From positions 1 through 23,776 of IMG/VR virus record IMGVR_UViG_3300009151_000393: DNA of 23,776 nt; one strand, written 5' to 3'. Source of the stretch: a virus. The position numbers and the translations under genes were made by a program. The notes under the pieces were generated by a model. It saw only the letters and a program-made list of their open reading frames with translations. It ran no database searches and was not told where the DNA came from. This document shows, one piece after another, positions 4,591 through 22,795 of this stretch; within the stretch, counting starts at the first letter, position 1; the number at the start of each line of letters is the position of its first letter.

Positions 4591-4631
4591 ATCGTCAGCT
4601 AGAATCCTATTTTAGCAACAGCACTGTTAAT

Positions 4632-4940
4632 ATGACCAAAGACACATATTTTGAAATGTGTGAAACTTTGGGCACTGAACCAATTGAGGAAGAAATTCCC
4701 GTAGAGTTTGAAGACTTTTGCTTAGATGTTCAAGAAGCGCTGGGAATATACTCAAAGCTACGAGACGAATGGGATTATATGGGTGGTAACTATATAGGCA
4801 AAACATATAATGGTTTGCTAGATATATTAGAATTACTAGATGTACCGGTCGAAGATCGAAGAACTCAGTATGAGTTAATAGGGATAATTGATAAGCATAG
4901 GTCACAAGCCATTGCTAATGCAAAACCTAAAACAAAATGA
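4632..4940 (+). CDS. Tail assembly chaperone, frameshift extension (gpT-like part)
   Basis: The ATG at 4632 is the first Met of this frame, but the frame is open and coding-like from 4554 (VIKFHEDQYRELNRQLESYFSNSTVN before that Met), and there is no ribosome binding site before 4632. The frame is -1 relative to the upstream chaperone gene. It is therefore best read as the C-terminal extension of a gpGT-like fusion made by frameshifting, not as a free gene. The segment is acidic in its first half (TEPIEEEIPVEFEDFCLDVQ) and helical, with a basic tail (ANAKPKTK); T-domains bind the tube subunit. It ends at TGA 4938-4940, followed by a terminator and then the tape-measure gene. Confidence 0.75.
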   Translation: MTKDTYFEMCETLGTEPIEEEIPVEFEDFCLDVQEALGIYSKLRDEWDYMGGNYIGKTYNGLLDILELLDVPVEDRRTQYELIGIIDKHRSQAIANAKPKTK

Positions 4941-4942
4941 AG

Positions 4943-4975
4943 AACCCCAGTAGCTGATGCTACTGGGGTTTTTTT
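4943..4975 (+). terminator. Strong rho-independent terminator after chaperone gene
   Basis: A perfect 12-bp stem (4943-4954 with 4959-4970) encloses a 4-base TGAT loop and runs straight into a seven-T tract (4969-4975). It begins 2 bases after the chaperone stop codon and ends the chaperone transcript just before the promoter of the tape-measure gene. Confidence 0.92.
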
Positions 4976-4996
4976 ATGGACAAAAAAATTTGACTA

Positions 4997-5025
4997 TTGA
5001 CAACAAAGCCCATAAGTGTTATAAT
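4997..5025 (+). promoter_or_regulatory. Consensus sigma70-type promoter for tape-measure gene
   Basis: TTGACA (4997-5002) and TATAAT (5020-5025) are separated by exactly 17 bases, and TG precedes the -10 box by one base (5017-5018), giving an extended -10. All twelve hexamer bases match consensus. Transcription should start near 5032, giving a leader of ~47 bases to the tape-measure ATG. It would be read by unmodified host RNA polymerase. Confidence 0.9.
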
Positions 5026-5040
5026 GGGGGTTACTAATAA

Positions 5041-5065
5041 TAGCGTTTAAAAATTTTGCACGCTA
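5041..5065 (+). promoter_or_regulatory. Inverted repeat in the tape-measure leader
   Basis: TAGCGT (5041-5046) and ACGCTA (5060-5065) form a 6-bp inverted repeat around a 13-base AT-rich centre. It starts ~9 bases after the predicted transcription start and ends 3 bases before the AGGAG ribosome binding site (5069-5073). It could be an mRNA hairpin affecting stability or translation, or a DNA operator. The stem is short, so chance is possible. Confidence 0.35.
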
Positions 5066-5078
5066 AGCAGGAGAACAC

Positions 5079-8000
5079 ATGGCAGAAAATATCAATATTG
5101 CAGTTAATGTTAATGATAATGGCACAACAGCACAAGCTACGGCCCAAGCTACAAAATTAGCACAAGCACTACAAAATGCAGCCACAGCAGCTGCAGGTGT
5201 ACGTGTGCCGGTAGCTACTGCAGCAGCTCGTCAAGGCGTAGCTGCATCTCAACCAAGCATGTTGCCTGCACGTGCAGCTGCTGCTGGGCCCGGTGGAACT
5301 GCCAGTGCTACTAATTTATCTCGTGGTATTGGTGGTCAAACAGGTGCAAGTGGTCGTGATTTTGCAGCAGAAGCTCAAGGTTTGGGCGGGCTTGTGCACG
5401 TGTATGCAACCTTTGCAGCTAACCTATATGCTGTTTCGGCAGCTTTTGGCGCACTAAGCAAGGCAGCTGATACTGCAAATATTATTCAAGGTTTAGACCA
5501 ACTAGGTGCTGCAAGTGGTCGTTCGCTTGGTACACTAGCTAAAAATATGGTAAGTGCTACGGATGGGGCAATCTCACTACGTCAAGCAATGACTTCTACT
5601 GCACTAGCAACTAGTGGCGGTATGAGCAGTAAAGCTATTTTAGAAATGACTGATGTTGCTAAGAAGGCTTCGCTAGCACTTGGCCGTGATATGTCAGACT
5701 CTATGGATCGTTTAACAAAAGGTATTGTAAAGATTCAACCTGAATTGCTAGATGAACTTGGTATTATGACCAGAGTTATCCCTGCTCAACAAACTTATGC
5801 TCGTGAGATGGGAAAAAGTGTAGACTCACTAACTGACTTTGAAAAACGCCAAGCATTTATGAATGCGGTACTAAAAGAAGGTTCTGCAAAATTCAAAGAT
5901 ATTGCTATTGCAGCAAATCCATACTCTAAATTAACAGCTAGTTTAGCTGATTTAAGTCAATCAGCTTTAAATGGAATAAATAAAGTATTAGGCCCATTGA
6001 TGACGTTTTTGTCAGAAAGCCCAACAGGTTTAACTATGGCTGTTGGAACCTTAGCGGGACTATTATTAAAACAGGCAATACCTGCATTAGGGCAATATAA
6101 AAAGAGCCTTGAAGATCTTAGACAATTAAATCTTGAAAAAGCAGCAACTAAAAGCGATATTCTAACTGATACTGGTCAATATGACGCAGCCCAAGCCGAT
6201 AGATCAAAACAAGCATATTTAGACAGAAATAAATATGCTACACAAAGTGCTGAGGTACAAGCACGCCTATTAAAAGAATCCGAAGATATACATGCGGGTG
6301 TTTTAGCCCGTAATGAAGCACGTTCAAAAAGCTTTCTTGGACATGAAACAACTAATCAAATGATTATTAACAGGGCGTATGCAGATGCTGCTGCCTCTAA
6401 TATTAAATCAGATGTTGCCCAAACACAATCAAGATATGGGCTAGTTGCTGCTTGGAAAAGATTAAATGAAGAAATTAATGTATCTAAAACTACCGGTCAA
6501 TTATTAAAATTTGGCGATGGCGTAGAAGCTATGGCACCTAAAACCAATGCTTTGCAAAATGGATTTATGAGATTAAGTGGTGCCATAATGATACTAGGTA
6601 CTGCAATAAGCACAATAATTGAAGCATTTGCACCTTGGTTACTACTTATAGGTGTTATAACTGCAGGTATAGGTTTTTTAATGGATCACTTTTCTAAAGC
6701 AAAAGAAGAATCTGGAAAAGCCTCTAAAGCTTTTGATAGTGTAAATAGTGCCTTTACAACAATGGGTAATACTTTAGATGCAATTAATCGCAAACCATTT
6801 CTAGAACAATTAAATCAAGCAAGTATTCAAGCAAAAGCTACTGCGGTAAATGAATTAGTTGATACTGTTGATGCTTTAGCTAAAGCTACTGCTGAAGCAA
6901 ATAAAAAAATGGGGTTTTGGGATACCTTATCCGATTGGAGAATGGGTCACGATTTCTTAAAGTTAGTTACTCTAGATTTTAAATTTACTAGTGCCGATAA
7001 ATTTTATTCTGCTAAAGATTTAACAGAAGGTTTAGAAAAATCTTTAATAGGAACAGCAAGAGCCATAGAAGGCAGCCCTGGAGCAAAAGCTTTTAATGAT
7101 TCAATTAAAAAGATATTAAATATTAACTATAAAGACGTAAGTCAATTAAAAGAAGCACTTGGTACTGTAGGAGATCAATTACTTATAAAAAATCCATCTT
7201 TAATTGCTGCATTAAAAACAGCTAATAAAGCAATAGGTGAAAGTGCAGCAATTGGTCAAACATTAAAAGATACTTGGGATACAACAGCAAAAAGCTGGGA
7301 TAATATTATAACAAGTTTATCTATTACAGATCCGCTAGGTAAACTAGGGCAAGATGCTTTAATGTCAAGCCTTGCCATGCAAAAAGCTTTTAATGATCCT
7401 AAAGCAAGCCTTGCAGAATTAATTTCTTTAACAACAGATTTTAGAAAATTAAGGATGTTAGACCCTAATACTGCTAAAGATTTAATTGAATTTGGTTTTC
7501 AAGCTGAAAAAGTTCAGAAAAATATCGGAGATTTAACTGAAAAATTAAATACGCAAAGAGAAGCAGCAGCAAAAGCAGCAGAAAAAGTTAAAGAAGTAAC
7601 AAAACCACTTCCTAAAGATTTAGCTGTAGGAATTTCTGTACCAGGCGGTATGCCAATGCCTAAAAATGTAGGCATAAGTGTAGATTCTAAAGCAGTATTA
7701 GCAGCTAATACCCAAGCAGAAGCTGCTAATAAAGCAGTAGCAAATACAGAAAAACAAATAAAACTAGAACAAGAAAAGTTAAATAATAGTGATTTATTAA
7801 TAAGAGCTCAAAGCGATATGTTTAAATTTGCAGCAAATGCAATAAGCATATCTATAGCACAAGGAGCAGCTAAAGCTAGTATTGATTTACAAAAAGCACT
7901 ATTAACAGGTGCTACAGGTCTTGCTAGTATTAATTTAAATGCAGATTTACAAAAGAAAGATATTGATTTACAGGTAAAAGCTTTAGGTGGACAAGTAGCA

Positions 8001-11000
8001 TTAATATCAGCAACAGAAAAATTAGCTTTAGTTACTGAAGAAGCTACTATATCTAGAGAAAGAGAAGCAGCAAATGCAGAAACAGATTCAACAAAAAGAG
8101 CTCAATTATTAAGTGGGCTTAATGATAGAAGTAAACAACTTACACTTAATGCTGTAGCACAAGGCCAACCATTACAAAAATTAATGGGTCAAGCACAAGG
8201 CAAAAGTGGCGAAGATCCAGGAGTTCAAAAAGCTGCTAGTTTAGCACTACAAGGTGCACTGCAAAGACAGGCGGTAACAGATAAACAAGATTTATTAGTT
8301 TTACAAAAAATTTCCATTGAGATTAATCGCCAGGCACAAGCACAAGCTGAAAAAACTAGATTAAAACAAGCTGAAATAGATGTAGACATAAAGATGAATT
8401 CACTAGCACAGGCTCAGCTAGATGATTTATTAAAGTATACTTTATTTGCAACTGAACAAGATATTGCTGAAAAAAGTAGATTAGAAAGTGCACAACTTTA
8501 TAACCAAGAAAAACGCACAGAAGTAGAACTACAAGGAAAAATTAATGCTGCACTAGAAGCGCAAGCTTTTGCAAAGAAACAAAAAGGTGTGACTCCTGAG
8601 ATTTTAAAATCACGTCAAGAAGAAGTAAATAATGCTCAGGATACTTTACTTAAACAAAAACAAAAATATGGTGTTGACGTAGTAGTACAACAAATAAAAA
8701 TTGAACAAGAGTTGTTTACTGCCAGAAAAACTCAAAGAGAATTTGAACAACAACAACTTAAAAGACAAACAGATTTAGCTTTTACAAAACGCGATATTGA
8801 TATTAGTATTGCAGATAATGCTTTGTCAGCTGTTAGTACTATGAAAGCAGCTCTGCCTTCTAGAATAGCGCAACAAGAAGCTCTTAATAAAGTATTAACT
8901 GAACAATTACGTATTGAAAAATTTATAGATAATCTTCAAAAGGAAACCTCAAAAACAGTAGAAGATATTAATGATAGATTAACAAAAATAGCAAATACAA
9001 AAGGAAAAGGCGAAAACTCATCAGAATTTAAAAAATTACTTGCAGAAGGTAATGCTATAGCAGATAATGCTAGAGCTATACAAGCAGCTGAAGAAAAAAA
9101 ATCAATTGCATTTATAAAAACTATAGGTGTTATAGGAAAATATACTCAAGAGTTAGAAAAACTTAATGATATTGAACAATTAAATGCAGCTAAACGCGAA
9201 ACAGCAGCACAAGGAATATCTGGATTAGAAACACTTGGTCGCATAGATCCCGTAACTGCAGCAAAGAAAAAATATCAACTTGCCGAAGAAGCTCGTCAAG
9301 CAGCTTTGAGAATATCTACATTAGGTGCAAATACTACTATAGCTGCTGATAAAGCAAAACCAGGTAGCGTAGATGCCGAATCACTTCAAAATGCTAAAGA
9401 TAAATTAGAACAAGAAACAAACATAAGCAATCAGAAAAAATTTCAAAATGACCTGACATTAGAATTAGTAAGTATTCAAACAGAGTTAAATAGATTACTA
9501 GGAGATCAAGCATATATTACTGAAACTGCTAGTAAATTTACGGATAACATGACTACTGCTTTTGGAGATTTAGGCAATGCAATTGGAACCGCCACAGAAG
9601 CTTTAGCAAAAATGGCTACAGATACTATTAAATACGAAACAGAAAGAATTAATTTAATAGAGAAACGAAAAATGGCTGAAGGTGATCCCAAAGAACTAGC
9701 TAAAATTGATGAAGATATAGCGCGTAATGATTCTAAAAATAGTCAAGATCAGCTTGCTAATACAACAAAACTTATTGGTTCAACTAAAAAGTTTTTTGAT
9801 CAAAAATCAATGGGTTATAAATTATTAGGCAATCTAGAAAAAGTTTCTGCAATGGTAACTGCGGCTTATCAAGCTAAGGAATTAGCAATGGCAGCAAGCA
9901 CAGCATTGGCAAAAATTGGAATTGATATACCAGCAATATATGCATCATTTATGGCTCAATTAGGACCATATGGTGCAGCTGCTGCAGGTGCCGCTATGGC
10001 TGCTGTAGGTATAAATGCATTAGGTGGAAATGCTACTAAAACTGATATGGTAGACATGACTGGTAAAACTTCAGAAGACCGTCAAAAAACTCAAGGCACT
10101 GGCGGTGTATTTGGAGATGAAACAGCCAAAAGCAAAACCATAACAGATTCACTAGAATTACTAGCTAAAAATTCAATAGAAGGTTTAAACTACGATAATG
10201 AATTATTAAAAGCTATGAGAAAGGTAGCAGATGCCGTAACAGGTGCTGCAAAATCTATTTATGCTAATTCAGGTATTAGAACCGGAAAAGGTTTTGGTAC
10301 CGGTGAGTCAGAAAGTTCTAATGCTAATTTTGGTTTAGGAAAAGCAGGTGGTGCAGCAGCAGGTGCTGCAATTGGTTTTCTAGTTGCAGGGCCTTTAGGT
10401 GCTGGTATAGGTAGTATGTTAGGTGGAGTTGTAAATAATGTATTAGGTGATATATTTGGAGGAGGAAGCTCTACTTCAAAGAAAATTACATCAGCTGGAC
10501 TAGAGTTAAAAGGTACATTTAAACAAGTAATGGATGATACTGAAGGTAGTATTAAACAGTTTAAAGATGTGCTAACAACAACTCATAAAGAGGGCGGATG
10601 GTTTAGTCAAAGTGAAGATTCAAGTTCACTTGCTCACGAAACCCAAGCACTAGGAAGTAAAGCTAGTCAAGCAATAGCTGATATATTTGGTCAAGCTAAT
10701 GAAATGTTTATTGCACTAGGCAAAAAAACGGGTGTGTCTGCTGCAGAAATTCAAAAGACGTTAGAAAATTTTGATATTTCTATGCCTATTGATTTAATGA
10801 ATAAAACAGGACAAGAACTTGTTGATGAGTTAAATGCAGTTATAGGTGAAAAAATAAGCGGTGCTGCTGAAAAAATCTTTACTGGATTTGAAAAATACAG
10901 AAACTTTGGAGAAGACTATTTAAAAACAGTACTGCGTGTTGTTGATGCAAATGATAAAGTTAATCAATCACTATTATCAATAGGTCATGCATTTTCAGTA

Positions 11001-12317
11001 ATAGGTAAATTTGATATAACTGAAGCAATGGTTAATGCAGCCGGTGGTCTAGAAACTTTCCAGACACAAGCATTATTTTTCCATGATAATTTCTTAACTG
11101 CTGCTGAGAAATTAGCACCAGTACAAAAAGGTGTAAATGATCAGTTAGTAAAATTAGGTATTAGTAGCAGTATTTCAAGAGATGAGTTTAAACAACTAGT
11201 AATTTCTCAAGATTTAAGCACTCGTGCCGGCAGAAACATGTATCAAAACTTAGTGGAATTAGCTCCAGGTTTTGATATGGTAACAAAAGCTATAGATGAT
11301 CTTGCCGTTAAATCACTAGACCTAGAAGCAAAAATTTATGAATTAATTGGCAAAAAATCCACAGCCGTAACTATTGCTAGAAATAAAGAACTAGCAGCTA
11401 TGGATGCTTCGTTAAGACCTCGTCAAATTTATATTAATGCACTAACAGATGAAATTGCACTACGTGATCAATTAAAATCTGCTTATGACTCTACAAATAA
11501 ATCTTTAACTGCATCTATTGATACATTAAAGAATTATAAAACAGCACTTCTTGCAGGAGCATCTTCAACACTTACTCCAGCAGAAAAATACGCACAATCT
11601 AAAGATTTATTAATACAAACTGCAGCAGCAGCTAAGGCAAGTATTACAATGTCAAGCTCTGCAGCAGATATAGCAGCTCGAGATGCAGCACTTGCTAAAC
11701 TAAGTTCAGTTTCAGATAGTTTCTTAGCTAATTCCAAGGAAATGAATGCAGGTAGTGCACAGTATTCCACAGACTTAGCCACAGTTACATCAGCATTAGA
11801 TGATGCTAGTTCAGCATTATCTACGCAACAAACTGATATGCAGCAACAATTAAGTTTCTTAGATACTATAGCTTCAGCAACTCAAACAACTGCAGATATA
11901 CTACTGTCATATCAAACTGCAAAAAGTACTAGTGAAGCTGCTCAATTAGGTGCAGTTACATCAGGTTCTGTGGCTGCTGGTATACCAATACCAGGGCATG
12001 CAAGTGGTGGACTAGCACAAGGTATATCTTTAGTTGGGGAAAATGGACCCGAAATTGTAGACTTTAAAAATCCAGGACGTGTTTACTCTAATCAAGCAAG
12101 TAACGATATATTTAGTACTAAGGAATTAGTTGAAGAAATCAAATCACTACGTAAAGAAGTAGCTTCTCTACGTGCTGATCAGCAAGAACAAACAGGACAT
12201 TTAATTACATCTACATACGACGCTAACATGAAAAATGCTGAAGCAATTGCAACAGCAAATCAAGAAGCTTTAAACAACCAAAATTGGAATACAAGATCCA
12301 AGGTTAAAATAGCTTAA
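5079..12317 (+). CDS. Tail tape-measure protein (2412 aa)
   Basis: This protein sets tail length and is ejected at infection. The ATG follows AGGAG at 5069-5073 at ideal spacing. Residues ~1-90 are Ala/Gln/Thr-rich; ~93-230 form the conserved TP901-like start of tape measures (LGGLVHVYATFAANLYAVSA, then VKIQPELLDELGI). Hydrophobic segments lie near residues 318-339, 499-538 (with AFAPWLLLIGVITAGIGFLM), 1595-1651, and a glycine-zipper region at 1753-1796. Between ~560 and 1590 runs a K/E/Q/A-rich helical coiled-coil-like rod. The end (~2299-2330) has the classic GHASGGLAQG and LVGENGPEIVDF motif, then a short coiled coil (LVEEIKSLRKEVASLRADQ). At about 0.15 nm per residue this predicts a tail of ~360 nm. 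I saw no peptidoglycan-hydrolase motif. The 3' end is followed by a terminator. Confidence 0.95.
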   Translation: MAENINIAVNVNDNGTTAQATAQATKLAQALQNAATAAAGVRVPVATAAARQGVAASQPSMLPARAAAAGPGGTASATNLSRGIGGQTGASGRDFAAEAQGLGGLVHVYATFAANLYAVSAAFGALSKAADTANIIQGLDQLGAASGRSLGTLAKNMVSATDGAISLRQAMTSTALATSGGMSSKAILEMTDVAKKASLALGRDMSDSMDRLTKGIVKIQPELLDELGIMTRVIPAQQTYAREMGKSVDSLTDFEKRQAFMNAVLKEGSAKFKDIAIAANPYSKLTASLADLSQSALNGINKVLGPLMTFLSESPTGLTMAVGTLAGLLLKQAIPALGQYKKSLEDLRQLNLEKAATKSDILTDTGQYDAAQADRSKQAYLDRNKYATQSAEVQARLLKESEDIHAGVLARNEARSKSFLGHETTNQMIINRAYADAAASNIKSDVAQTQSRYGLVAAWKRLNEEINVSKTTGQLLKFGDGVEAMAPKTNALQNGFMRLSGAIMILGTAISTIIEAFAPWLLLIGVITAGIGFLMDHFSKAKEESGKASKAFDSVNSAFTTMGNTLDAINRKPFLEQLNQASIQAKATAVNELVDTVDALAKATAEANKKMGFWDTLSDWRMGHDFLKLVTLDFKFTSADKFYSAKDLTEGLEKSLIGTARAIEGSPGAKAFNDSIKKILNINYKDVSQLKEALGTVGDQLLIKNPSLIAALKTANKAIGESAAIGQTLKDTWDTTAKSWDNIITSLSITDPLGKLGQDALMSSLAMQKAFNDPKASLAELISLTTDFRKLRMLDPNTAKDLIEFGFQAEKVQKNIGDLTEKLNTQREAAAKAAEKVKEVTKPLPKDLAVGISVPGGMPMPKNVGISVDSKAVLAANTQAEAANKAVANTEKQIKLEQEKLNNSDLLIRAQSDMFKFAANAISISIAQGAAKASIDLQKALLTGATGLASINLNADLQKKDIDLQVKALGGQVALISATEKLALVTEEATISREREAANAETDSTKRAQLLSGLNDRSKQLTLNAVAQGQPLQKLMGQAQGKSGEDPGVQKAASLALQGALQRQAVTDKQDLLVLQKISIEINRQAQAQAEKTRLKQAEIDVDIKMNSLAQAQLDDLLKYTLFATEQDIAEKSRLESAQLYNQEKRTEVELQGKINAALEAQAFAKKQKGVTPEILKSRQEEVNNAQDTLLKQKQKYGVDVVVQQIKIEQELFTARKTQREFEQQQLKRQTDLAFTKRDIDISIADNALSAVSTMKAALPSRIAQQEALNKVLTEQLRIEKFIDNLQKETSKTVEDINDRLTKIANTKGKGENSSEFKKLLAEGNAIADNARAIQAAEEKKSIAFIKTIGVIGKYTQELEKLNDIEQLNAAKRETAAQGISGLETLGRIDPVTAAKKKYQLAEEARQAALRISTLGANTTIAADKAKPGSVDAESLQNAKDKLEQETNISNQKKFQNDLTLELVSIQTELNRLLGDQAYITETASKFTDNMTTAFGDLGNAIGTATEALAKMATDTIKYETERINLIEKRKMAEGDPKELAKIDEDIARNDSKNSQDQLANTTKLIGSTKKFFDQKSMGYKLLGNLEKVSAMVTAAYQAKELAMAASTALAKIGIDIPAIYASFMAQLGPYGAAAAGAAMAAVGINALGGNATKTDMVDMTGKTSEDRQKTQGTGGVFGDETAKSKTITDSLELLAKNSIEGLNYDNELLKAMRKVADAVTGAAKSIYANSGIRTGKGFGTGESESSNANFGLGKAGGAAAGAAIGFLVAGPLGAGIGSMLGGVVNNVLGDIFGGGSSTSKKITSAGLELKGTFKQVMDDTEGSIKQFKDVLTTTHKEGGWFSQSEDSSSLAHETQALGSKASQAIADIFGQANEMFIALGKKTGVSAAEIQKTLENFDISMPIDLMNKTGQELVDELNAVIGEKISGAAEKIFTGFEKYRNFGEDYLKTVLRVVDANDKVNQSLLSIGHAFSVIGKFDITEAMVNAAGGLETFQTQALFFHDNFLTAAEKLAPVQKGVNDQLVKLGISSSISRDEFKQLVISQDLSTRAGRNMYQNLVELAPGFDMVTKAIDDLAVKSLDLEAKIYELIGKKSTAVTIARNKELAAMDASLRPRQIYINALTDEIALRDQLKSAYDSTNKSLTASIDTLKNYKTALLAGASSTLTPAEKYAQSKDLLIQTAAAAKASITMSSSAADIAARDAALAKLSSVSDSFLANSKEMNAGSAQYSTDLATVTSALDDASSALSTQQTDMQQQLSFLDTIASATQTTADILLSYQTAKSTSEAAQLGAVTSGSVAAGIPIPGHASGGLAQGISLVGENGPEIVDFKNPGRVYSNQASNDIFSTKELVEEIKSLRKEVASLRADQQEQTGHLITSTYDANMKNAEAIATANQEALNNQNWNTRSKVKIA

Positions 12318-12321
12318 AAGG

Positions 12322-12350
12322 ATGCCCCGGTTATACTGGGGCATTTTTTT
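12322..12350 (+). terminator. Rho-independent terminator after tape-measure gene
   Basis: The stem ATGCCCC (12322-12328) / GGGGCAT (12338-12344) encloses a 9-base loop and runs into seven T (12344-12350). It begins 4 bases after the tape-measure stop codon. Confidence 0.88.
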
Positions 12351-12370
12351 GTCCCAGATAAAAAATATAC

Positions 12371-12399
12371 TTGACTAAAGTGATCTAATCGAGTATAAT
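12371..12399 (+). promoter_or_regulatory. Sigma70-type promoter for hub/fibre genes
   Basis: TTGACT (12371-12376) and TATAAT (12394-12399) have a 17-base spacer; 11 of 12 hexamer bases match consensus. It lies just after the terminator and ~26 bases before the hub ATG, so the leader is very short and holds the AGGAG ribosome binding site (12415-12419). As at the tape-measure promoter, a GGG-rich stretch follows the -10 box. Confidence 0.87.
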
Positions 12400-12424
12400 A
12401 GGGTGAATTGAATTAGGAGAATAT

Positions 12425-15400
12425 ATGAGCAATGTAACGCAAGCATGGCTTGAAGACCCTGCCAGTATTCGTGGCATATTGGTAGAAGTAACAGTAAAAG
12501 ATTTACTTGGTAAATACGGAACTGCTGGCACGGATGTAACACTATATCTTTCTAACATAGGATATACTACAAGCACAGCAGATGTAAGTTATTTGCCATA
12601 TTTAACTGGCTCACTACAAACAACAGAAAGCCTATCTATTGATGGCGGTCTTTCTATGAGTTTTGGTGATATTGAAGTTTCAAATCCAAACGGTGAATTA
12701 GATAGTTGGTTAGATAGTACACAGTTTATTTGGGTTAATCGTAGTATTCAAGTATATTTAGGTGATCCTCGTTGGATTACAACTAACTTAGCCAATGTGT
12801 ACACAGTATTTGAAAAAATATTTGATGGTGTTATAGCAAACACAGACTCTGCTGCTCGTGAAACATTAAACATAAAAGTCCGTGATAAATTAGAACGTTT
12901 AAATATGCCATTAACTGCAAATACCTTAGGTACATACGGAACTTGGGCTTCAGGACAAACAAATCAAGATAGTATTCGCCCAATAGTATTTGGCGAAGTA
13001 CATAATATGTCTCCGTTGTTAGTAGACCCATCATTATTAGAATATATGTTTACCGATACCGGCGGTACTACAATTACTACAGTAGTTACTGCTACATCAG
13101 CCACAGATAATACAATAACTTGTGTAAGTACTCAAAATTTTGCGGTAGGTAAAGCAGCAGTATTTAATGGCACTGGAGTTTTTGGTGGCATTGTAGCAGG
13201 CACAACTTATTATATTAAAACTATACCATCCTCAACAACTTTTACTATATCTAGTACAGTTAGTGGCACAACATTTGCGCTTACTACTGCTAGTGCTCTA
13301 GTTGGTGGTAGTGCTGGTACAACACAAACTCAAGTAACTGTTGTTGATGTACCTCTTCCAAATACACAATTATCATTACTACTAAGAACTAGTAATAATT
13401 CAACATTTGCCAGTGATTCTAGTCCTACTACAAAATCAGTAATAAATAATAATTCTGCTACTAGTTCAACTTTAACACCTTTTACAAATGCTGCAGGAGC
13501 ATGGGATACTACGACATACCCATTTGGTTCTATTGCTTTTAATGGTACAAATCAATATTTAAATATTGCAGCTAATGGTGCTTTTCAATTTGGAACAGGT
13601 ACTTTTACCTGCGAAGCTTGGGTATATGTAACAGACCGAGGTAAATCTTATACCATATTTAGTAATGGTATAATGAATAATATGATAGAAATGGGTATTA
13701 CTGCAACAGGGTATCCATATGCAGCTTTTGGAATTATAAGTGGTGGAAAAAGTGGTGAAAACGGGACTTTAACATTAACTGCACCAACTGGTTTTGTAAT
13801 GACCAGTGTTTTACTTGGTGGTTATGGGGCTTTTACAAGCAGTAATGGTTGGTGGATACCAGAATTTACTGGAAGTGTAGCTAGTACAACATTATCTGGT
13901 CAAACATTTGAATCAATGTGTGTAGGGCAATCAACAGTAACTATTACTTCAAATGGTAATGGTAATGCAACATGGGGAGACGTTGCTCCAGGAACTGTTA
14001 AAGGATTAGCGGCAAACGTTACTTATGGAGTAGTAGGACCTAATATACTAAGTACAGGTACTTGGCATCATCTTGCTATAGTTAGATCTGGAACAGGAAC
14101 AAATCAAACTGTATTTTATGTAGATGGAGTAGTTGCAGCAACAAAAACAGTTGCAACAGATTTTAGTATTGCTCCCCCTTTGTATGTTGGAGCAACAACA
14201 TATGGAAATAATACAACAACGTTATTTTGCAAAGGCAATATAACTAATTTACGTATACTTAAAGGTCGTGCAGCATATACTGCAGCATTTACTCCTAGTA
14301 CTTTACCTTTTTTAACGGCTAGTCCTAATGTATCGTTATTAACGCTTCAAAATTCTAGTGCTATTGATAATAGTGCGTATTCACATGCATTAACTAAAAA
14401 TGGCACTACTCAAACATTTTCTAATGTAATTACACCAGATACAACAACTTACTCTACTTCATTTAACGGATCAAATAATTATATAACTATTCCATATAAT
14501 AGCGTGTTTAATATAGATCCATCTACTGCTTTTACTTTTGAATGCTGGGTACTTACATCTAGTACAACTACATTTGTTATTGCTGCTAGAAATTGGAGTT
14601 ATGGAGGTACTGGCCCTACTTGGGCATTTTATCTAGAAAATGGTATAACTCCAGTTATGGGTATTGCGGGTACAGGTTCTGCAACTTATGAAATGGGAAA
14701 ATCAACATTAAATGGAACACTTGGAGCTTGGAACCACTATGCTTGGTCCAGAGATTCCAATAATATTTTTAGAATATTTGTTAATGGTCAAATAGGATTA
14801 ACTAGAGCTGATCAACAGGGCATGACTTCAGCATCTGGTAGTATGTATATAGGTGTATCATCAAATTTAAGTTCTCCATATGCAAATGGGTATATGTCTA
14901 ATATGCGATTTGTAGTTGGTGCGGAAATCTATACTACAGCATTTACTCCAAGTAAAATACTTAATGGAGCATCTACTGCTTTTTCTACTACCACTACTAC
15001 CACTACTAATGCTATTCCAGGTACACTAGACCCTAACCTGATGACTGCAACAATTACAGTAGGTGGTGGTTCTACTGCTGAAAGCGTTATTGAAATTCGT
15101 TACAACGGTTTGCCAGCTTATACTAATCCAGATATATATGGAAATAATAATACTACTAGACCTAACGGTGCTGTAGTTAATTTAGATACTGGTAAATTTA
15201 CGCTTACTTCTCAACCGTTTGGCACGGTTACTGCTTCTGTGCAAGGTATTAAAAAGAGTATAGATTTAACTACTGGTACATTAATAGAAGGTACTTACAC
15301 TAATAATATTGCAAAAATAATTTCATTAATTGCCACACAGTATGGTGACGCAAATAATAAATTAAGTGCCACTGATCTAGACTTAACAAATTTATTAGCT

Positions 15401-16006
15401 TTTTCAACTGCAAATAGTGCGCCAATAGGTACAGTAATTTTAGACAGAACTAATGTATTAAATATTTGTCAATTAATAGCTGCTAGTGCTAATGCACAAT
15501 TATTTTTTAACCGTAAAGGACTATTACAGTTATTGCAACTTGGAACACCTACTAGTGATACAGTAGTTGCTATTACTGATACTGATATATTATTTCATAG
15601 TTTAAATGTATCAGCAAGAACAGATGTTGTTGCAGCAACAAAAATAGGTTATTGCAAAAATTATGCAATTCAAAGTACGATAGCTGGAAATGTACCAGCA
15701 AGAGCTATAACAATGTATGCAAATGAGTGGTACACTAGTAGTATTTTAGATGCAACTGTTAAAACAAATTATAAAATACAAAGTACTCCGGAACAAAAAG
15801 ATACTTGTTTAATAGCTAAAACAGATGCCGATGCATTAGCAACAACTATAAATAATTATTTTAAAGTACCTAGAACTGTATATAGTTTTGTTGGAAAATC
15901 TAGCTTATTTTCATTAAAATTAGGGCAAGCAGTTACATTAACACATAATAGATTTGGATTAAACAGCGGTAAATCAGGGCAAGTAATATCATTAAGTCCT
16001 AATTGA
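12425..16006 (+). CDS. Tail hub/tip protein with inserted LamG-like and lectin-like modules (1193 aa)
   Basis: Residues ~1-205 look like a tail-tip/hub N-terminus: GDIEVSNPNGELDSW, an IQVYLGDPRW strand, KVRDKLERLNMPL and RPIVFGEVHNMSPLL. Residues ~205-310 carry a TATSATDNTITC ... FTISSTV module seen in several phage structural proteins. Residues ~367-642 form a LamG/concanavalin-like jellyroll (FNGTNQYL ... FTCEAWVYV ... TWHHLAIVRSG ... VFYVDG) with a SUEL-lectin-like stretch nested at ~447-535. Residues ~679-847 form a second LamG-like domain (FNGSNNYITI ... FECWV ... WNHYAWSRD ... IFVNGQ). Residues ~862-1193 return to a hub-like C-terminus (NICQLIAASANAQLFFNRKG, KLGQAVTLTHNRFG). LamG and lectin folds bind carbohydrate, so the insert may contact host glycans. 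The hub role rests on position after the tape measure; the domain calls rest on motifs. Confidence 0.7.
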   Translation: MSNVTQAWLEDPASIRGILVEVTVKDLLGKYGTAGTDVTLYLSNIGYTTSTADVSYLPYLTGSLQTTESLSIDGGLSMSFGDIEVSNPNGELDSWLDSTQFIWVNRSIQVYLGDPRWITTNLANVYTVFEKIFDGVIANTDSAARETLNIKVRDKLERLNMPLTANTLGTYGTWASGQTNQDSIRPIVFGEVHNMSPLLVDPSLLEYMFTDTGGTTITTVVTATSATDNTITCVSTQNFAVGKAAVFNGTGVFGGIVAGTTYYIKTIPSSTTFTISSTVSGTTFALTTASALVGGSAGTTQTQVTVVDVPLPNTQLSLLLRTSNNSTFASDSSPTTKSVINNNSATSSTLTPFTNAAGAWDTTTYPFGSIAFNGTNQYLNIAANGAFQFGTGTFTCEAWVYVTDRGKSYTIFSNGIMNNMIEMGITATGYPYAAFGIISGGKSGENGTLTLTAPTGFVMTSVLLGGYGAFTSSNGWWIPEFTGSVASTTLSGQTFESMCVGQSTVTITSNGNGNATWGDVAPGTVKGLAANVTYGVVGPNILSTGTWHHLAIVRSGTGTNQTVFYVDGVVAATKTVATDFSIAPPLYVGATTYGNNTTTLFCKGNITNLRILKGRAAYTAAFTPSTLPFLTASPNVSLLTLQNSSAIDNSAYSHALTKNGTTQTFSNVITPDTTTYSTSFNGSNNYITIPYNSVFNIDPSTAFTFECWVLTSSTTTFVIAARNWSYGGTGPTWAFYLENGITPVMGIAGTGSATYEMGKSTLNGTLGAWNHYAWSRDSNNIFRIFVNGQIGLTRADQQGMTSASGSMYIGVSSNLSSPYANGYMSNMRFVVGAEIYTTAFTPSKILNGASTAFSTTTTTTTNAIPGTLDPNLMTATITVGGGSTAESVIEIRYNGLPAYTNPDIYGNNNTTRPNGAVVNLDTGKFTLTSQPFGTVTASVQGIKKSIDLTTGTLIEGTYTNNIAKIISLIATQYGDANNKLSATDLDLTNLLAFSTANSAPIGTVILDRTNVLNICQLIAASANAQLFFNRKGLLQLLQLGTPTSDTVVAITDTDILFHSLNVSARTDVVAATKIGYCKNYAIQSTIAGNVPARAITMYANEWYTSSILDATVKTNYKIQSTPEQKDTCLIAKTDADALATTINNYFKVPRTVYSFVGKSSLFSLKLGQAVTLTHNRFGLNSGKSGQVISLSPN

Positions 16007-16026
16007 GTAGCTGGTACAATAAATGT

Positions 16027-16034
16027 AGAGGTGA
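16027..16034 (+). promoter_or_regulatory. Strong Shine-Dalgarno sequence fixing the start at 16042
   Basis: The stretch AGAGGTGA, part of a longer GAGGTGAT match to the 16S 3' end, lies 7 bases before the ATG at 16042. It is the best ribosome binding site in the window. It marks that ATG, and not the upstream TTG at 16003, as the start of the fibre gene. Confidence 0.8.
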
Positions 16035-16041
16035 TTATATA

Positions 16042-18249
16042 ATGGCAGCAATTGTTAATGAAAGAGATAAAGCACTACAAGCAGCGGCCTATAGAACTAT
16101 GGATACGTCCGTAAGTATAACCTCTTCTGGTGGTGCTGGATTTAAAACACCTAAAAATGGTGCTGTAACTATTCCCACAAGTATTACACTTACAGCAGCT
16201 GCAAGTTTAATATTTACTGCTGCAGCTGTGTATACTTGGCATTATGCTGTAAGTTCGGCACCTACAACTTGGGTATTACTAGGTACAGGTACTACACAAG
16301 TAATTACAAGTGCTACAATATTAAGTATAATTGGAACTAGTACTTCAGTAAATTATAGATGTACTGTTACAGAAACTTTATTAACAACTGCATATGGTTA
16401 TTATAGCATACAATATAGTGCTGAAGCTTCTGATCCAGTAATAGTAAATTTAACAAGAGCTGTTGCAACAATTGGTTGCGACGCAACAGGTACACCAATT
16501 AGTTTTGCAAATACAGATACTACAATTACTGTAACCCGAGGCACCAGTAATTTAACTTATAGTTCAACTGGCGGTGCTAATACATTTAAAGTTGCAATTG
16601 CCAGCGGATATGATACCGGTCGTACACTGGGCACACAAACTGCTGTTGATGGTGGCACTACCTATAATCTAGCAAGCATAACAGCACTTACCACAGATTC
16701 AGCAAAAGTTGTATTTTCAATAACAGTTTATGATGCATCAGGAACTGCATTAGCGCCTGTAACTAAAGAAATTGTATATACAAAAGTAACTAGTGGTATT
16801 GTAGGAACAAATGCAGTATTTTATTACTTAGATGTACCTACTCCTGTTATTACTAAATCTACTAGCAGTCCACTTATCAGTGGAACACATAGTAGTATTA
16901 CTGTAACAGGTAAAAAAGTTGATGGTGGTACTACCACTACATATGGATTTATAACTGTAACTGGTAATGGTGACTCAGAAGTTGGAACTGCTACTCCAAA
17001 TACTGTTACATTTACTCCTAATAATAATGCAGGAAAAACCTCTTATACTGTAAAACTCTATAATCAAGCTTCCGTAGCTGGCGCAACTACATTAGATACT
17101 CAAATAATACCAGTTGTATTTATTGGTGGTAGTACTATAACTAGTACGTGTACTAATGCCAATACTGTAATTCCCACAGATTCTAGTGGGTCAGCTGGTG
17201 TTTATACAAATACTTCAACAGACATTTATGTATATGAAGGTGCGAATGTATTAACTTATGATTCTGTAGGTACTACTAATGGTACTTGGACAGTTACCGC
17301 TTTTGCAACAAATATAACAGCAGGTACAATTACAGATTTAGGCGTATTTGCACGCACAACCATAGCATCTAATATACTTGCTGATACTGCTTTTATCAAT
17401 TATAATATAAGTGGGATAAGCCTAGGTGGACAAGCTTTTACAGCTGTAACTACCCAAACATTTGCAAAAAGCAAAGCAGGTGTTCAAGGTACACCTGGAG
17501 TAGGTACTCGTATAGCAATTGTTAGTGCTTATGCTTGGAGTAATTCTGGAGTGCCTGTTTATACTGGTAATACAACATATACTTGGGCAACTAGTGTTAA
17601 TTCAACAATACCTACAGGTTGGTCCGCAATAATTCCTGCTGCTCCTGGTACAGGATATACATTATATCAATTAAGTTTAACTATCACAGGTTTAACAACA
17701 GATACTAGTACAACTGCTAGTTGGACAAATGCTGCTAATGGTACGATTGGTTATCGTAATGATGGAACTATTGGACCACAGGGTAATTCACATCGTACTG
17801 CTTATGTTGTTACAACAAGTCTTGGAATTCCAGGTACGCCAACTGCTGCCACAGCAGGCGTTGGCGGAGATGCAGCACCCACTAGCAGTGTTACTAATTT
17901 AGATAACTCACTAGCATATTGGAGTTTTGCAGCTACTAGCGTTTTAACTAGCGGACAATATTTATATCAATGTGATGGTATTCTTAATGCTACAACAAAT
18001 GGTATTACTTGGGGTAATCCGTATCTTTCTAATTTAAAAGTTGGAAGCTTATCGGCTATTAGTGCTAACCTAGGTAGTATTACTGCAGGTCAAATAAATA
18101 TTGGTCCTAATAGATTTATTGTAGAATCTACAGGTGCTACAACTATACAAAGCGGTACTAGTGGTGCGCGTATGCAAATCACTGAAAATTTTATTAAAGT
18201 ATATGATGGTAATATTTTACGAGTACAATTAGGCAATCTTAGTATGTAA
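16042..18249 (+). CDS. Central tail fibre, gpJ C-terminus-like (735 aa)
   Basis: The start at ATG 16042 gives MAAIVNERDKALQAAAYRT, a typical phage minor-tail N-terminus; an in-frame TTG at 16003 exists but has no ribosome binding site. The middle is a string of T/S/G-rich beta, Ig-like segments (for example TWHYAVSSAPTTWVLLGTG near the N-terminus and TFTPNNNAGKTSYTVKLYN further on). Short collagen-like stretches (GVQGTPGVGTR, GTIGPQGNSHR) link modules in the last third. The C-terminus carries the classic fibre ending: LGSITAGQINIGPNRFIVES, then ITENFIKVYDGNILRVQLGNL. In lambda-type phages this ending belongs to gpJ; here it is a separate gene 35 bases after the hub gene, so hub and fibre appear split. 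It probably projects from the tail tip and takes part in host recognition. Confidence 0.7.
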   Translation: MAAIVNERDKALQAAAYRTMDTSVSITSSGGAGFKTPKNGAVTIPTSITLTAAASLIFTAAAVYTWHYAVSSAPTTWVLLGTGTTQVITSATILSIIGTSTSVNYRCTVTETLLTTAYGYYSIQYSAEASDPVIVNLTRAVATIGCDATGTPISFANTDTTITVTRGTSNLTYSSTGGANTFKVAIASGYDTGRTLGTQTAVDGGTTYNLASITALTTDSAKVVFSITVYDASGTALAPVTKEIVYTKVTSGIVGTNAVFYYLDVPTPVITKSTSSPLISGTHSSITVTGKKVDGGTTTTYGFITVTGNGDSEVGTATPNTVTFTPNNNAGKTSYTVKLYNQASVAGATTLDTQIIPVVFIGGSTITSTCTNANTVIPTDSSGSAGVYTNTSTDIYVYEGANVLTYDSVGTTNGTWTVTAFATNITAGTITDLGVFARTTIASNILADTAFINYNISGISLGGQAFTAVTTQTFAKSKAGVQGTPGVGTRIAIVSAYAWSNSGVPVYTGNTTYTWATSVNSTIPTGWSAIIPAAPGTGYTLYQLSLTITGLTTDTSTTASWTNAANGTIGYRNDGTIGPQGNSHRTAYVVTTSLGIPGTPTAATAGVGGDAAPTSSVTNLDNSLAYWSFAATSVLTSGQYLYQCDGILNATTNGITWGNPYLSNLKVGSLSAISANLGSITAGQINIGPNRFIVESTGATTIQSGTSGARMQITENFIKVYDGNILRVQLGNLSM

Positions 18250-18257
18250 GGCATAAA

Positions 18258-18545
18258 ATGAGTTTTGGTTTAAAAATGTATAAGTCAAATGGACTTGTTG
18301 CGTATGACTCGGATTCTGTTACTTGGAATCAGGTTGATCAGCTTTATTTAGCAGCAAGTGGAAGCGGTAGCTGGAATTATCCAATACTTATTGACAAAGA
18401 AATATTAGTAGTACAGATGTTAATAGATGCACCTCCTACTACACGAAAAGCTATAGCATATACTATAGTTACTAATAATACAAATGGTACTATTTCAATT
18501 TCAGGCGGTTCTGAAAACGCCTTTTTCTGGGTATTAATGCGATGA
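18258..18545 (+). CDS. Small tail protein, 95 aa, function unknown
   Basis: The gene lies 8 bases after the central-fibre gene, with AAGG at 18248-18251. It starts MSFGLKMYKSNGLVAYDSDS and continues through short beta-strand stretches to a strand-like end (ENAFFWVLMR). Its stop codon overlaps the next start (ATGA). Small proteins that begin M-S-x-G-L and resemble the N-terminal region of a neighbouring fibre are common in tail-fibre regions of AT-rich phages. The next gene starts MSYGFSATNNYNQVLISSDT, which may be a related module. A minor tip or fibre-attachment protein is plausible from position only; I recognise no defined family. Confidence 0.6.
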   Translation: MSFGLKMYKSNGLVAYDSDSVTWNQVDQLYLAASGSGSWNYPILIDKEILVVQMLIDAPPTTRKAIAYTIVTNNTNGTISISGGSENAFFWVLMR

Positions 18546-21500
18546 GCTACGGATTTTCAGCAACTAATAATTATAATCAGGTATTAATATCTAGTGATAC
18601 AAAAAATTTGCATTTTATAGGCAAAGCATATTTGTATAGCACTATTAAAGCTAGTGACTACTATGGTGGTATGCGACAATGGAGTTTTAGAATTGGCACA
18701 TCTAAAAACATTGCTCCATTACCGTTTTTTTCAATGACAGGCGATGAATACTATGCTATATCTGCAGTTAGGCAGATTAGTACTGCACCAAATATTATTA
18801 TTACTACTCAACCAATTACAGTTATAGGGCAGATAGCTAAATACTATAGTTGGACTAATGGGCCCGGCGCTATTAATGAAGGTTCAGATAATGTATATAG
18901 CATAGCTACAACAAATGTAGCTACTGGTACTGTGCTATATTGGGATATTTCTCCAAGTACTAGCGATGATTTTCAATACACAGATGGTAGTTTTATTATT
19001 GATAGTGCAGGAAATGGATCTTTTCAGATAACTCCTACTAAATTATTTGATCCGTATCCTGAAACTGCAGAAAATTATACAATTAATATTAGATCTTATC
19101 TTCCATTAACAGGAACAGTAGTTTTATCATATACATTTACAGTTAACAATCAAACTTCTAGTGATATCACAGGATTTGGCTGGACCACTGACTCAAGTTG
19201 GGGAGCAAGTACACTTTCAGAAGGCAGTAATATGCCGGGTACTGGAACTCCTGCTGGTACAACTTTTATAGTTACTGCTACTCAAGGTAATAACGCAGTA
19301 ATAGCTACATCTGATATTATTACTATAAGTTCAGACTACGCAGAAACTTATACTTTTACAACATTACCTTTAACTATGAATGAAGGTACTGCGTATAATG
19401 TTGTTGTATCTACTACAAATGTTATAAATGGCACTGTAATATATTTTACACTAAACTCAACAAACAAAAATGAATTTATAGTTGATGAAGGCAGTTTTAC
19501 TATTAATAATAATAGTGGAACATTTAGTATAACTCCAAGCCTTTTTTATGATCCTTATCCAGAAACTGGATATACTAATTTTACTATTAGTTTAAATAAA
19601 CGTTATGGGCAAAATGATAATCTTACTGTTGTAGCTATTACAACTACTAATAATCCGACAATAAATATAGCTGCTGTTACTACTTCACAAACAACAGGAT
19701 TAGGTTGGCAAAATAATGCACTATGGGGCACAGATCCTATTACTGAAGGCGTTATAGGAAGTGGAATTCCAAATGATACTGGAACAACTACTAGTACAGT
19801 ACCTACAAATACTTTTATAGTTACAGATACAAATCCTAATAATCCTGTAATTGCTACTTCTGATCAGTTTGCTATAGTTAATACATATCTAACAATTAAC
19901 GCAAATCCAGTTCTTAGTGGGGCTAATTTTCGTGCACCTACATCAGCAGATTTAACTGCTTCAGGTTATACAGGCGGCGATCTAGCTAATTACACAAGTA
20001 CTTATGGTAATATTTTACTAGAAGGTCAATCTTTTACTGTAAACCTATCTTCCAGTAGTACTACTTTAATTAATGGTACAGTTTTTTATTGGGATGTGCA
20101 GGCACTAGGTACTGGACTACCAGTAATACCAATGACAGTATATACTGATGGATTGGCAAGCCCTGAAGCAATTACCAATGATTTTTCTACTAGATCAGGT
20201 TCTATAGTTATAAATTTTGGAGCCGGTTCATTTACTGTTCCTAGTATACGAGTAAATGAATGGGCTATGAAAGAAACAAAGTACGAGTTTTTTAAACTTA
20301 ATATAAGAATGGGTGCTGAATTAACAGGACCTATAATAAAAACCGTACCTTTTCAAATATTAGATCAGCCTTTTACTGCAGATAGTTTACCGCACTGGGG
20401 AGATCCAGATAATCAAAGTACTCGTGGCATAGTTGCTAATATGAATGAGGGTACTACTAATAATTTTTATGTTTATAACGGAGTTAGCGGTAATAATAGC
20501 AATAGTAATGCTAACTATTATTGGACTATAAATCATATTACAACTAATAACAGTGATTTTACTGCGGTAAGCGGTCAAATTACATCAAGTAAAACTAATG
20601 CAACAAGTGGATTTACACAACCTACAGGTATTTTTAGTATAACTACTGCGGCTGACAATCTAACAGAAGGTTTAAAAAGATTTAATGTAAGTATTAGAAT
20701 TGGTAGCATAACTGGTACTATTGTACAAACAAGTGGCGAAATTCGTTTGTTAGATACATCAACTTCGCTTCCTCCACTACCAAGAATATTATCAACTAGC
20801 CACGCAAATTTACTTATTGACGAAGCTGTAGTTGGTAATATAACAGTAAATTACACTTTAACACTAGCATCTGCATTAAGTGCCAGTGCTTCTACTAGAC
20901 TATATTGGAGAATTAATCACGTAACCACAGATGCTCTAGATTTTGTAAATACTAACGGTTTTGTAACAGTTGCTGCTAATGCCACTACTGCAACTTTTAG
21001 TATAGTTATTAAACCTGGAGACACAGCTGCCTCAGAACAAACAGAGTATTTTTCAGTTAGCGTTGTTGAAAAAGCAGCAGCAAACTATAGATACTGGAGT
21101 ATTAATCATGTAACTACAAATGCCAGTGATTTTATTACTACATCAGGGGTTTGTTTACCCGGCGGGTATAATTGGTGGTATTTTTATGTTAATGCAACAG
21201 CGGATAATTTAACAGAAGGTACTGGCACAGAAAAATTTACACTTAGTATAGCAAATAGTACTAGTGGTATTTTGTGTACTTCAGGACAAATAGCTATTAC
21301 AGATGCTAGTCAGGGACGAGCAAGACCATATATTATAGGCTCTGCTAAAGTTGCAGAAAATGTAGCAAATACTTATAGTGTTTTTACTAGTGGATTATCA
21401 GATGGTACATATTACTGGCGCATAAATGACATTACTACAAGTACTGTGCAAAATATAACTCCTACATCTACTGGTGATTTTACTACTAGTTGGGGTGAGG

Positions 21501-22795
21501 TTACTATAACAAATAATAGTGGTACTTTTAGTGTTACAGCAGCTAATGATGGTTTAACTGAGTACGAAGAAAAATATACTATTAGTTTGGTAAATAAAGC
21601 AGCGGCTGATAAATACTGGACTATTGAACATATAACTACAAATGATAGTGATTTTAATAACATATCTAATTATTGTATACCAGGCGGGTATAATTGGTGG
21701 TATTTTAATATTCCTGTAGTTGCGGATTATATAACTGAAGGTACAGAAAAGTTTAATATTCAAATTCGTCAGGGAAGTGATACAGGTACTGTACTAACTA
21801 AATCAGGAGCTATTAGTATACTAGATACTAGTCTAGGATATTATTCAGTAATACCTGGAGCACTTACTGAAAGTTTTGTTTTTAATGCAACAATTTTTAC
21901 TCCTGGCGTTGCTGATGGAACTACCCTTTATTGGGATATCAATCACATCACAACCTCAGATTTAGACTTTGTAACAACATTTGGTTCATTTGCTGCATCT
22001 ACAAGTGGAGCAACAATTAGCATTACGGCTGTTAACTATGATGCTGCAGAATTTGATGAAGGTTTTACAATTAATGTACGCACTCAACCAAAATATATCT
22101 GGGAAATTGAGTTAATTCGTAGTGGAATAGCTAACACAGTACCTGAAGTTTATATATTTGCTGAAGCATCTGCCTCTGCATTATCACTTACTGAAACTAT
22201 GGGATTAAGAGTACTTCGTGATGACGGCTCAACTAGTTTTGATTCACGATTAGGCCCACTAGTAATTAATGCAGCTACTGCAGTTACTCAACCATATAAC
22301 CCAAGACCTTCACCTGGCGGAGGTTTATATTCAGAAGAATGTCGTTCTAATGGGCAACAGGCTGGAGATGCATTAGCTCCAGATCTTAGTAATTATAATG
22401 CTTATAATATAGCTAATATTCCAAATAAACCAATATATCACTATACTTCACTTGCACAGGCTCAAAGACAGACAAATGCGCATAGAGATAGACAAGAATG
22501 TACGGGATTTAATGCTTATGGTGGTTGCGTTGGATATGCTGAAGAAGAACACTGGGATTCAGATTATTGGTGTTTTTATAGGGGCGGAATAAAAAATTTC
22601 AGTAATACTTATATACATGCAGGATGGATTCCTGTAACTTGGAACTGTTATTGGAGATACTCTAGAGGAGCTTCACTTCTTGGTGTTGGTTATGGTAATG
22701 GTGGAGATAATGGAGGGGGTTGGCCTTATAATAATGAAACTATAAATCTTTCTTCAGGTGTTGTTATTATTGCTGATGGTGCTTTATATGATTAA
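18542..22795 (+). CDS. Large repeat-rich tail fibre/adhesin with Calx-beta-like domains (1417 aa)
   Basis: The start overlaps the previous stop by ATGA. Residues 1-~90 are a short tail-type module (MSYGFSA ... LISSDT ... FRIGTSKNIAPLPF). From ~110 to ~1190 there are at least nine Calx-beta-like beta domains. Each has a YWxINHxTTxxxDF strand, an acidic TEGxExF turn and often an ending like ILDTS or ITDAS. Two halves are internally duplicated: a GxGW-containing unit (19171-19338 and 19699-19890), and a ~174-residue unit around PGGYNWWYF (21151-21184 and 21673-21706). The last ~160 residues (from ~1254) are Cys-, Gly-, Tyr- and Trp-rich (five Cys; GGDNGGGWPYNN) and may be the receptor-binding end. 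Calx-beta folds are common in adhesins. The fibre role is inferred from position and architecture. Confidence 0.65.
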   Translation: MSYGFSATNNYNQVLISSDTKNLHFIGKAYLYSTIKASDYYGGMRQWSFRIGTSKNIAPLPFFSMTGDEYYAISAVRQISTAPNIIITTQPITVIGQIAKYYSWTNGPGAINEGSDNVYSIATTNVATGTVLYWDISPSTSDDFQYTDGSFIIDSAGNGSFQITPTKLFDPYPETAENYTINIRSYLPLTGTVVLSYTFTVNNQTSSDITGFGWTTDSSWGASTLSEGSNMPGTGTPAGTTFIVTATQGNNAVIATSDIITISSDYAETYTFTTLPLTMNEGTAYNVVVSTTNVINGTVIYFTLNSTNKNEFIVDEGSFTINNNSGTFSITPSLFYDPYPETGYTNFTISLNKRYGQNDNLTVVAITTTNNPTINIAAVTTSQTTGLGWQNNALWGTDPITEGVIGSGIPNDTGTTTSTVPTNTFIVTDTNPNNPVIATSDQFAIVNTYLTINANPVLSGANFRAPTSADLTASGYTGGDLANYTSTYGNILLEGQSFTVNLSSSSTTLINGTVFYWDVQALGTGLPVIPMTVYTDGLASPEAITNDFSTRSGSIVINFGAGSFTVPSIRVNEWAMKETKYEFFKLNIRMGAELTGPIIKTVPFQILDQPFTADSLPHWGDPDNQSTRGIVANMNEGTTNNFYVYNGVSGNNSNSNANYYWTINHITTNNSDFTAVSGQITSSKTNATSGFTQPTGIFSITTAADNLTEGLKRFNVSIRIGSITGTIVQTSGEIRLLDTSTSLPPLPRILSTSHANLLIDEAVVGNITVNYTLTLASALSASASTRLYWRINHVTTDALDFVNTNGFVTVAANATTATFSIVIKPGDTAASEQTEYFSVSVVEKAAANYRYWSINHVTTNASDFITTSGVCLPGGYNWWYFYVNATADNLTEGTGTEKFTLSIANSTSGILCTSGQIAITDASQGRARPYIIGSAKVAENVANTYSVFTSGLSDGTYYWRINDITTSTVQNITPTSTGDFTTSWGEVTITNNSGTFSVTAANDGLTEYEEKYTISLVNKAAADKYWTIEHITTNDSDFNNISNYCIPGGYNWWYFNIPVVADYITEGTEKFNIQIRQGSDTGTVLTKSGAISILDTSLGYYSVIPGALTESFVFNATIFTPGVADGTTLYWDINHITTSDLDFVTTFGSFAASTSGATISITAVNYDAAEFDEGFTINVRTQPKYIWEIELIRSGIANTVPEVYIFAEASASALSLTETMGLRVLRDDGSTSFDSRLGPLVINAATAVTQPYNPRPSPGGGLYSEECRSNGQQAGDALAPDLSNYNAYNIANIPNKPIYHYTSLAQAQRQTNAHRDRQECTGFNAYGGCVGYAEEEHWDSDYWCFYRGGIKNFSNTYIHAGWIPVTWNCYWRYSRGASLLGVGYGNGGDNGGGWPYNNETINLSSGVVIIADGALYD
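21071..21830 (+). repeat. In-frame tandem duplication (~522-525 bp) inside the large fibre gene
   Basis: The pattern K-AAA-x-x-(Y)YW-x-I-x-H-x-TT-N-x-SDF, then C-x-PGGYNWWYF, occurs twice. At the DNA level a 24-base stretch (21161-21184 and 21683-21706) is identical, and the flanking 10 bases differ at only two positions; the copies are 522 bases (174 codons) apart. The other parts have diverged, so the duplication is not very recent, or the PGGYNWWYF element is under strong constraint. Confidence 0.8.

Follow-up and report, generated by a model that had tools for sequence, protein, structure and literature searches.

Directly downstream of the tape-measure gene of the uncultured tailed phage analyzed here (the window, a virus record of IMG/VR type of 23,776 bases with a siphophage-like tail module) lies an ORF in which a LamG-type jellyroll appears to be interrupted by another lectin-like segment. 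This arrangement raises three questions: whether one domain is truly nested within the other, what the interrupting segment is, and whether it could still bind sugar.

The tail protein and its split LamG domain

The ORF and the sequence strings by which the initial annotation identified it were found where that annotation had placed them (Table 1). Both halves of the product match phrog_8917 (residues 18–221 and the C-terminal half), a family that carries no stated function. Because the ORF follows the tape-measure gene directly and its product is of the phrog_8917 type, the protein is predicted to be a tail-tip or hub component. Two short ORFs in different frames (positions 4159–4590 and 4632–4940) immediately precede the tape-measure gene; in many siphophages, a frameshifted pair of tail chaperones sits just before the tape measure. 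Further downstream, positions 18542–22795 encode a protein of 1417 amino acids with repeats that are Calx-beta-like in look, and a similar protein is encoded downstream in the related sequence L159.

The middle of the 1193-residue protein is matched by the LamG/ConA-like profile PF13385 in three stretches (E = 9.4e-25). HMMs that we built from phage LamG domains match LamG2 whole (residues 642–844) and LamG1 in two pieces, with HMM positions 10–118 aligning to residues 314–429, and a second piece, reliable from about residue 536, ending at residue 643 (HMM position 225); complete jellyrolls of the PF13385 type are thus recognized, LamG1 being complete only as two halves. In an alignment of 45 LamG sequences, occupancy is near zero over residues 420–469 and full again from residue 540, at the TWHHLAIVRSG strand. 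The LamG and SUEL parts were modelled apart because a joint alignment of both sets of rows was misaligned. With the LamG rows only, most of the flanks (residues 375–415 and 545–624) reached a pLDDT of about 71–92 and the insert stayed at low confidence, mostly below 50, and the flanks, modelled together, found their PDB counterparts among LamG and CBM40 folds. The interruption of the first jellyroll ahead of the TWHHLAIVRSG strand, which the initial annotation had described, is accordingly real: the split HMM match, the empty alignment columns and the flank model show that approximately 100 residues are nested within one hairpin of a jellyroll that is complete in other respects.

Table 1. Features of the window discussed in the text (res, residues of the 1193-aa protein)
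Feature	Position	Strand	Basis
Tape-measure gene	5079-12317		phrog_3779, phrog_7740 matches
ORF P0001, 1193 aa, phrog_8917-type tail protein, likely tail-tip/hub, lectin-like block mid-protein	12425..16006	+	follows tape-measure gene
N-terminal half of phrog_8917-type protein (res 1-292), includes small beta repeat	12425..13300	+	phrog_8917, 1.1e-18
Block LamG1[SUEL]-LamG2, putatively acquired	13253..15071	+	1,819 bp here vs 82 bp at same site in L158
LamG1, first half (res 314-435)	13364..13729	+	LamG HMM i-E 1.2e-20; AF2 pLDDT 81-86, res 375-404
Nested divergent SUEL/rhamnose-binding-lectin domain (res 445-535)	13757..14029	+	profile and predicted fold
Glu445 codon (= CSL3 Glu7/Lat-1 Glu42)	13757..13759	+	alignment; PMC3269628, PMC2430599
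Tyr467 codon (= CSL3 Tyr27/Lat-1 Tyr63)	13823..13825	+	alignment; PMC3269628, PMC2430599
Ala486, replacing loop 1 (CHA) cysteine invariant in relatives	13880..13882	+	alignment
Asn514 codon (= CSL3 Asn74)	13964..13966	+	alignment; PMC3269628
Asp519 codon (= CSL3 Asp79)	13979..13981	+	alignment; PMC3269628
Ala521, replacing DPC-motif cysteine invariant in relatives	13985..13987	+	alignment
Gly523 codon (= CSL3 Gly83/Lat-1 Gly117)	13991..13993	+	alignment; PMC3269628, PMC2430599
Lys526 codon (= CSL3 Lys86/Lat-1 Lys120)	14000..14002	+	alignment; PMC3269628, PMC2430599
LamG1, second half (res 537-632)	14033..14320	+	LamG HMM i-E 4e-26, C-terminal match
LamG2, uninterrupted (res 642-845)	14348..14959	+	PF13385 best stretch 681-829; LamG HMM 1.1e-55
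C-terminal half of phrog_8917-type protein (res 884-1193)	15074..16006	+	phrog_8917, 8.8e-25

Identity of the nested segment

The initial annotation had assigned the insert to the SUEL/Gal_Lectin domains, proposing a PF02140 search and a structure prediction as checks, and held that the absence of a PF02140 match together with a fold unlike SUEL lectins would speak against the assignment. The first half of this pair came true, as the PF02140 profile (curated cut-off 31.4 bits) yielded no match to the insert; the second did not. PF02140 misses the insert only because the domain is divergent, given that its aligned viral relatives match this profile (42 of 42). Viral SUEL domains were gathered from IMG/VR by pattern and profile, and an HMM built from 72 of them, with the insert excluded, matched the insert over its full length and colinearly at 28.4 bits (28.4–28.9 bits in all with the insert kept out of training; E about 1e-10). 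By the same HMM, the best of 4,811 shuffles scored 8.8 bits, the reversed insert 0.2 bits, other parts of the 1193-aa protein at most 3.2 bits, and the best of 2,052 natural decoys (101-residue pieces of other phage ORFs) 14.2 bits; this last decoy belongs to a protein of L238 with a short GDPIPGVYK ending. These scores place the insert in common descent with the known SUEL members. Scans with exact peptides from the insert alone found no relative, and a tblastn search with the insert leading the query alignment retrieved viral SUEL domains at 33–39% identity (E from 3e-10 to 1e-4, relative to the candidates). The closest solved sequence among those compared is the SUEL domain of RemA (chain 8gl6_D; 30% identity, pairwise E = 1e-4).

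The structure prediction gave a concordant picture. The AlphaFold2 model of the insert from the SUEL alignment (pLDDT 75.9, pTM 0.69) superimposes, by VIA, on eleven SUEL/RBL entries with Z scores of 9.0–11.6 (2.0–3.4 Å over 86–96 residues), and the best unrelated PDB entry reaches Z 7.2, so that only SUEL lectins lie above Z 8; likewise, the best 14 PDB matches in Foldseek are all SUEL/RBL. Since the model was built with SUEL rows, this support for the fold depends in part on the homology call. The SUEL/Gal_Lectin identity therefore stands on the profile of the relatives and on the predicted fold. The boundaries needed a small correction: the previously given end (residue 535) is exact, and the start (447) is two residues late and omits a sugar-contact glutamate, the domain extending from E445 to G535.

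The nesting of a SUEL domain in LamG1 is confirmed by these results, and two other interpretations lose most of their ground. The insert could be a low-complexity, Ser/Thr/Gly-rich beta insertion that merely resembles SUEL, as might be suggested by its T/S/G/N-rich composition and by the failure of PF02140 to detect anything in it. However, composition-matched shuffles stay far below the 28.4 bits of the insert, the match is colinear and full-length with every functional position kept, and the leading fold matches are SUEL only; such chance resemblance is already disfavoured to the point of being hardly credible. Alternatively, a SUEL domain could lie between two unrelated partial jellyrolls, so that the nesting is only apparent, and 16 of 79 bacterial loci do have SUEL and LamG in tandem within a single ORF. 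Yet the flanks correspond to the first and then the second half of a single LamG profile, in order and with no duplicated part except a weak overlap over the insert, and modelled together they resemble LamG and CBM40 folds, which makes the tandem arrangement very improbable.

Two further matches were set aside. The weak similarity to the tail fibre of phage phi3LM21 (phrog_38233, E = 0.002) falls in a common small tail-fibre beta repeat and was not counted as SUEL, and a phmmer match in the PDB to complement receptor 1 is the sum of many sub-threshold repeats. The L238 ORF (402 aa, secreted-type) has a short GSFGDPIPGVYK ending that resembles a degenerate SUEL C-terminus.

Sugar-contact residues, lost cysteines and possible function

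The primary sugar site of the lectin CSL3 consists of Glu7, Tyr27, Asn74, Asp79, Gly83 and Lys86 (PMC3269628), and that of latrophilin (Lat-1) of Glu42, Tyr63, Gly117 and Lys120, where the substitutions E42D, E42Q or K120R greatly reduce or abolish binding (PMC2430599). All six CSL3 contact positions are kept in register in the insert, with exact spacing (D-x3-G-x2-K, and N five residues before D). The same six residues are kept in 81–85 of the 85 bacterial SUEL domains that we collected, and the 42 viral ones agree.

The cysteines follow a different pattern. The cysteines of loop 1 (CHA) and of the DPC motif, which on the basis of the alignment probably correspond to the latrophilin loop 1–loop 2 pair Cys83–Cys115, are present in 85 of 85 bacterial domains, a set collected by a pattern in the YG region and selected on neither cysteine, and in 42 of 42 viral domains, a set partly picked by a GDPC pattern so that its count for the DPC cysteine is biased. 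In the insert, both positions are alanines and C499 is the single cysteine, which bears out the initial remark that most cysteines are replaced; neither the four-disulphide framework of animal RBLs (8 Cys) nor the CHA/DPC pair of the bacterial and viral domains is present. In place of the YGR and DPC motifs the insert has YGA and DVAPGTVK, retaining Y, G, D, G, T and K and losing R, P and C; the R position of YGR is T in most viral relatives. Because the Pfam cut-off is not reached and the DPC motif and the disulphide are missing, we file the insert as a divergent SUEL descendant outside canonical PF02140. The initial annotation had mentioned neither the six kept contact residues nor the cysteine loss at an otherwise invariant pair, nor the block-level insertion described below.

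With the structural cysteines gone and the ligand residues kept, the insert is read as a domain maintained for sugar binding in which the holding of the loops has changed. Our preferred explanation, which as a whole we consider rather probable, is that the block helps a tailed phage to bind its host, as an accessory module carried at the tail tip. Two LamG/ConA-like jellyrolls would have been inserted into the linker of a phrog_8917-type tail protein, as the empty site in close relatives suggests, and the hairpin loop of LamG1 before TWHHLAIVRSG carries a complete small descendant of SUEL/rhamnose-binding lectins, as shown by the profile and the predicted fold. The SUEL sugar site (E445, Y467, N514, D519, G523, K526) is probably still presented on two long loops, and the fixation of the domain's two termini within the jellyroll, together with the extra WWIP and NGN segments, may replace the loop 1–loop 2 disulphide. 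Judging from its sequence, the insert probably binds sugar, presumably rhamnose- or galactose-like residues of a host surface glycan, which would add avidity or specificity to adsorption. In its most specific form, namely a disulphide-free rhamnose- or galactose-binding SUEL lectin clamped in a jellyroll, as part of a three-level adhesin (SUEL within LamG within the tail protein) acquired as one block, this reading is offered tentatively, at somewhat less than an even chance.

The main competing view is that the domain, though descended from SUEL, has lost sugar binding and acts as a structural spacer or makes protein–protein contacts in the tail tip. The insert does lack both the loop disulphide and the DPC motif, the loss of the proline and cysteine of this motif could have wrecked loop 2, and sugar binding has disappeared from many SUEL domains of animal receptors, which have been proposed to recognize ligands other than carbohydrates (PMC2430599). 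In those non-binding animal domains, however, it is the Glu or the Lys that is changed (PMC2430599), and the insert displays the opposite pattern, with all six contacts kept and the cysteine pair gone; a spacer role is thus unlikely, though well above the chance and tandem interpretations.

Comparison with other lectins and origin of the block

The insert shares with CSL3, SUL-I and the latrophilin RBL (PF02140) the fold, the YG element, the order of strands and loops and the six sugar-contact residues, but differs from PF02140 lectins in the missing loop 1–loop 2 disulphide, DVAPGTVK instead of the DPC motif, the extra WWIP and NGN, a score below Pfam detection and its nesting in another domain. 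The SUEL domain of the RemA adhesin (8gl6_D) is likewise Cys-poor and bacterial-type but retains the CHA/DPC pair. In our sample of 79 bacterial SUEL loci, no SUEL was nested in LamG, and the two domains, where they share an ORF, are always side by side, unlike in the insert; similarly, among some 220–276 phage LamG domains in a sample of 80 viral loci, neither a nested SUEL nor a comparable split was detected. SUEL domains on phage tail-type proteins, as in the window, were found on viral contigs L093 (positions 5970–8750, on a minor tail protein L, PF05100), L119 (1608–4163, on a GpJ-type tail protein) and L008 (beside a LamG), but in all three the cysteine pair is kept and the domain lies outside the TWHH hairpin. 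Carriage of SUEL on phage tail tips thus seems to recur. In L008 (2869–3942), the SUEL follows what seems to be LamG strand 1 (DGLIQYLDP) and precedes the remaining LamG, possibly a second nesting at another site.

The addition of glycan-binding modules to the tail proteins of siphophages is well established (PMC6669499). Those of lactococcal and other siphophages (evolved Dit and the like) are also sugar-binding modules (CBMs) added to a conserved tail protein that aid host binding, but with other lectin folds, and nesting of a lectin within a lectin was not encountered in the abstracts retrieved. Our literature search retrieved no paper on SUEL domains of phage tail proteins, which appear to be little described. 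The principle of added tail sugar-binding modules is therefore known; what is new is the nesting, along with a SUEL that lacks the disulphide. The locus shows how a phage can extend a conserved tail protein for host recognition through lectin-in-lectin nesting. It also amounts to a natural experiment on whether the disulphide retained by nearly all relatives is required for the SUEL sugar site.

A search with the C-terminal half of the ORF product identified six relatives that encode the same tail protein without the LamG1[SUEL]-LamG2 block. The flanking protein of L158 and L159 is 70–79% identical to that of the window (N-terminal half, 79% to L158 and 73% to L159; C-terminal half, 76–77% to both), and in blastn against L158 positions 12005–13252 and 15072–16600 of the window align at 83% and 77%, respectively. 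Neither LamG nor SUEL was matched in the records of the six relatives, which are fragments, or in 79 related tail proteins, the median length of which is 502 aa vs 1193 here; LamG is found in downstream ORFs in six of this set of 79. Parsimony favours insertion of the block in the lineage of the window, into a linker that tolerates additions. An assembly chimera is argued against by the reading frame, which is open across every boundary of the block, and by a base composition like that of the rest (GC3 of 0.07–0.15 in the block vs 0.11–0.18 elsewhere). Several related tail proteins (the hub ORFs of L334, L329 and L161) carry extra small beta repeats at the linker occupied here by the block, and a CBM-like insertion is located further on, in the C-terminal half, in L396 (positions 4546–7395).
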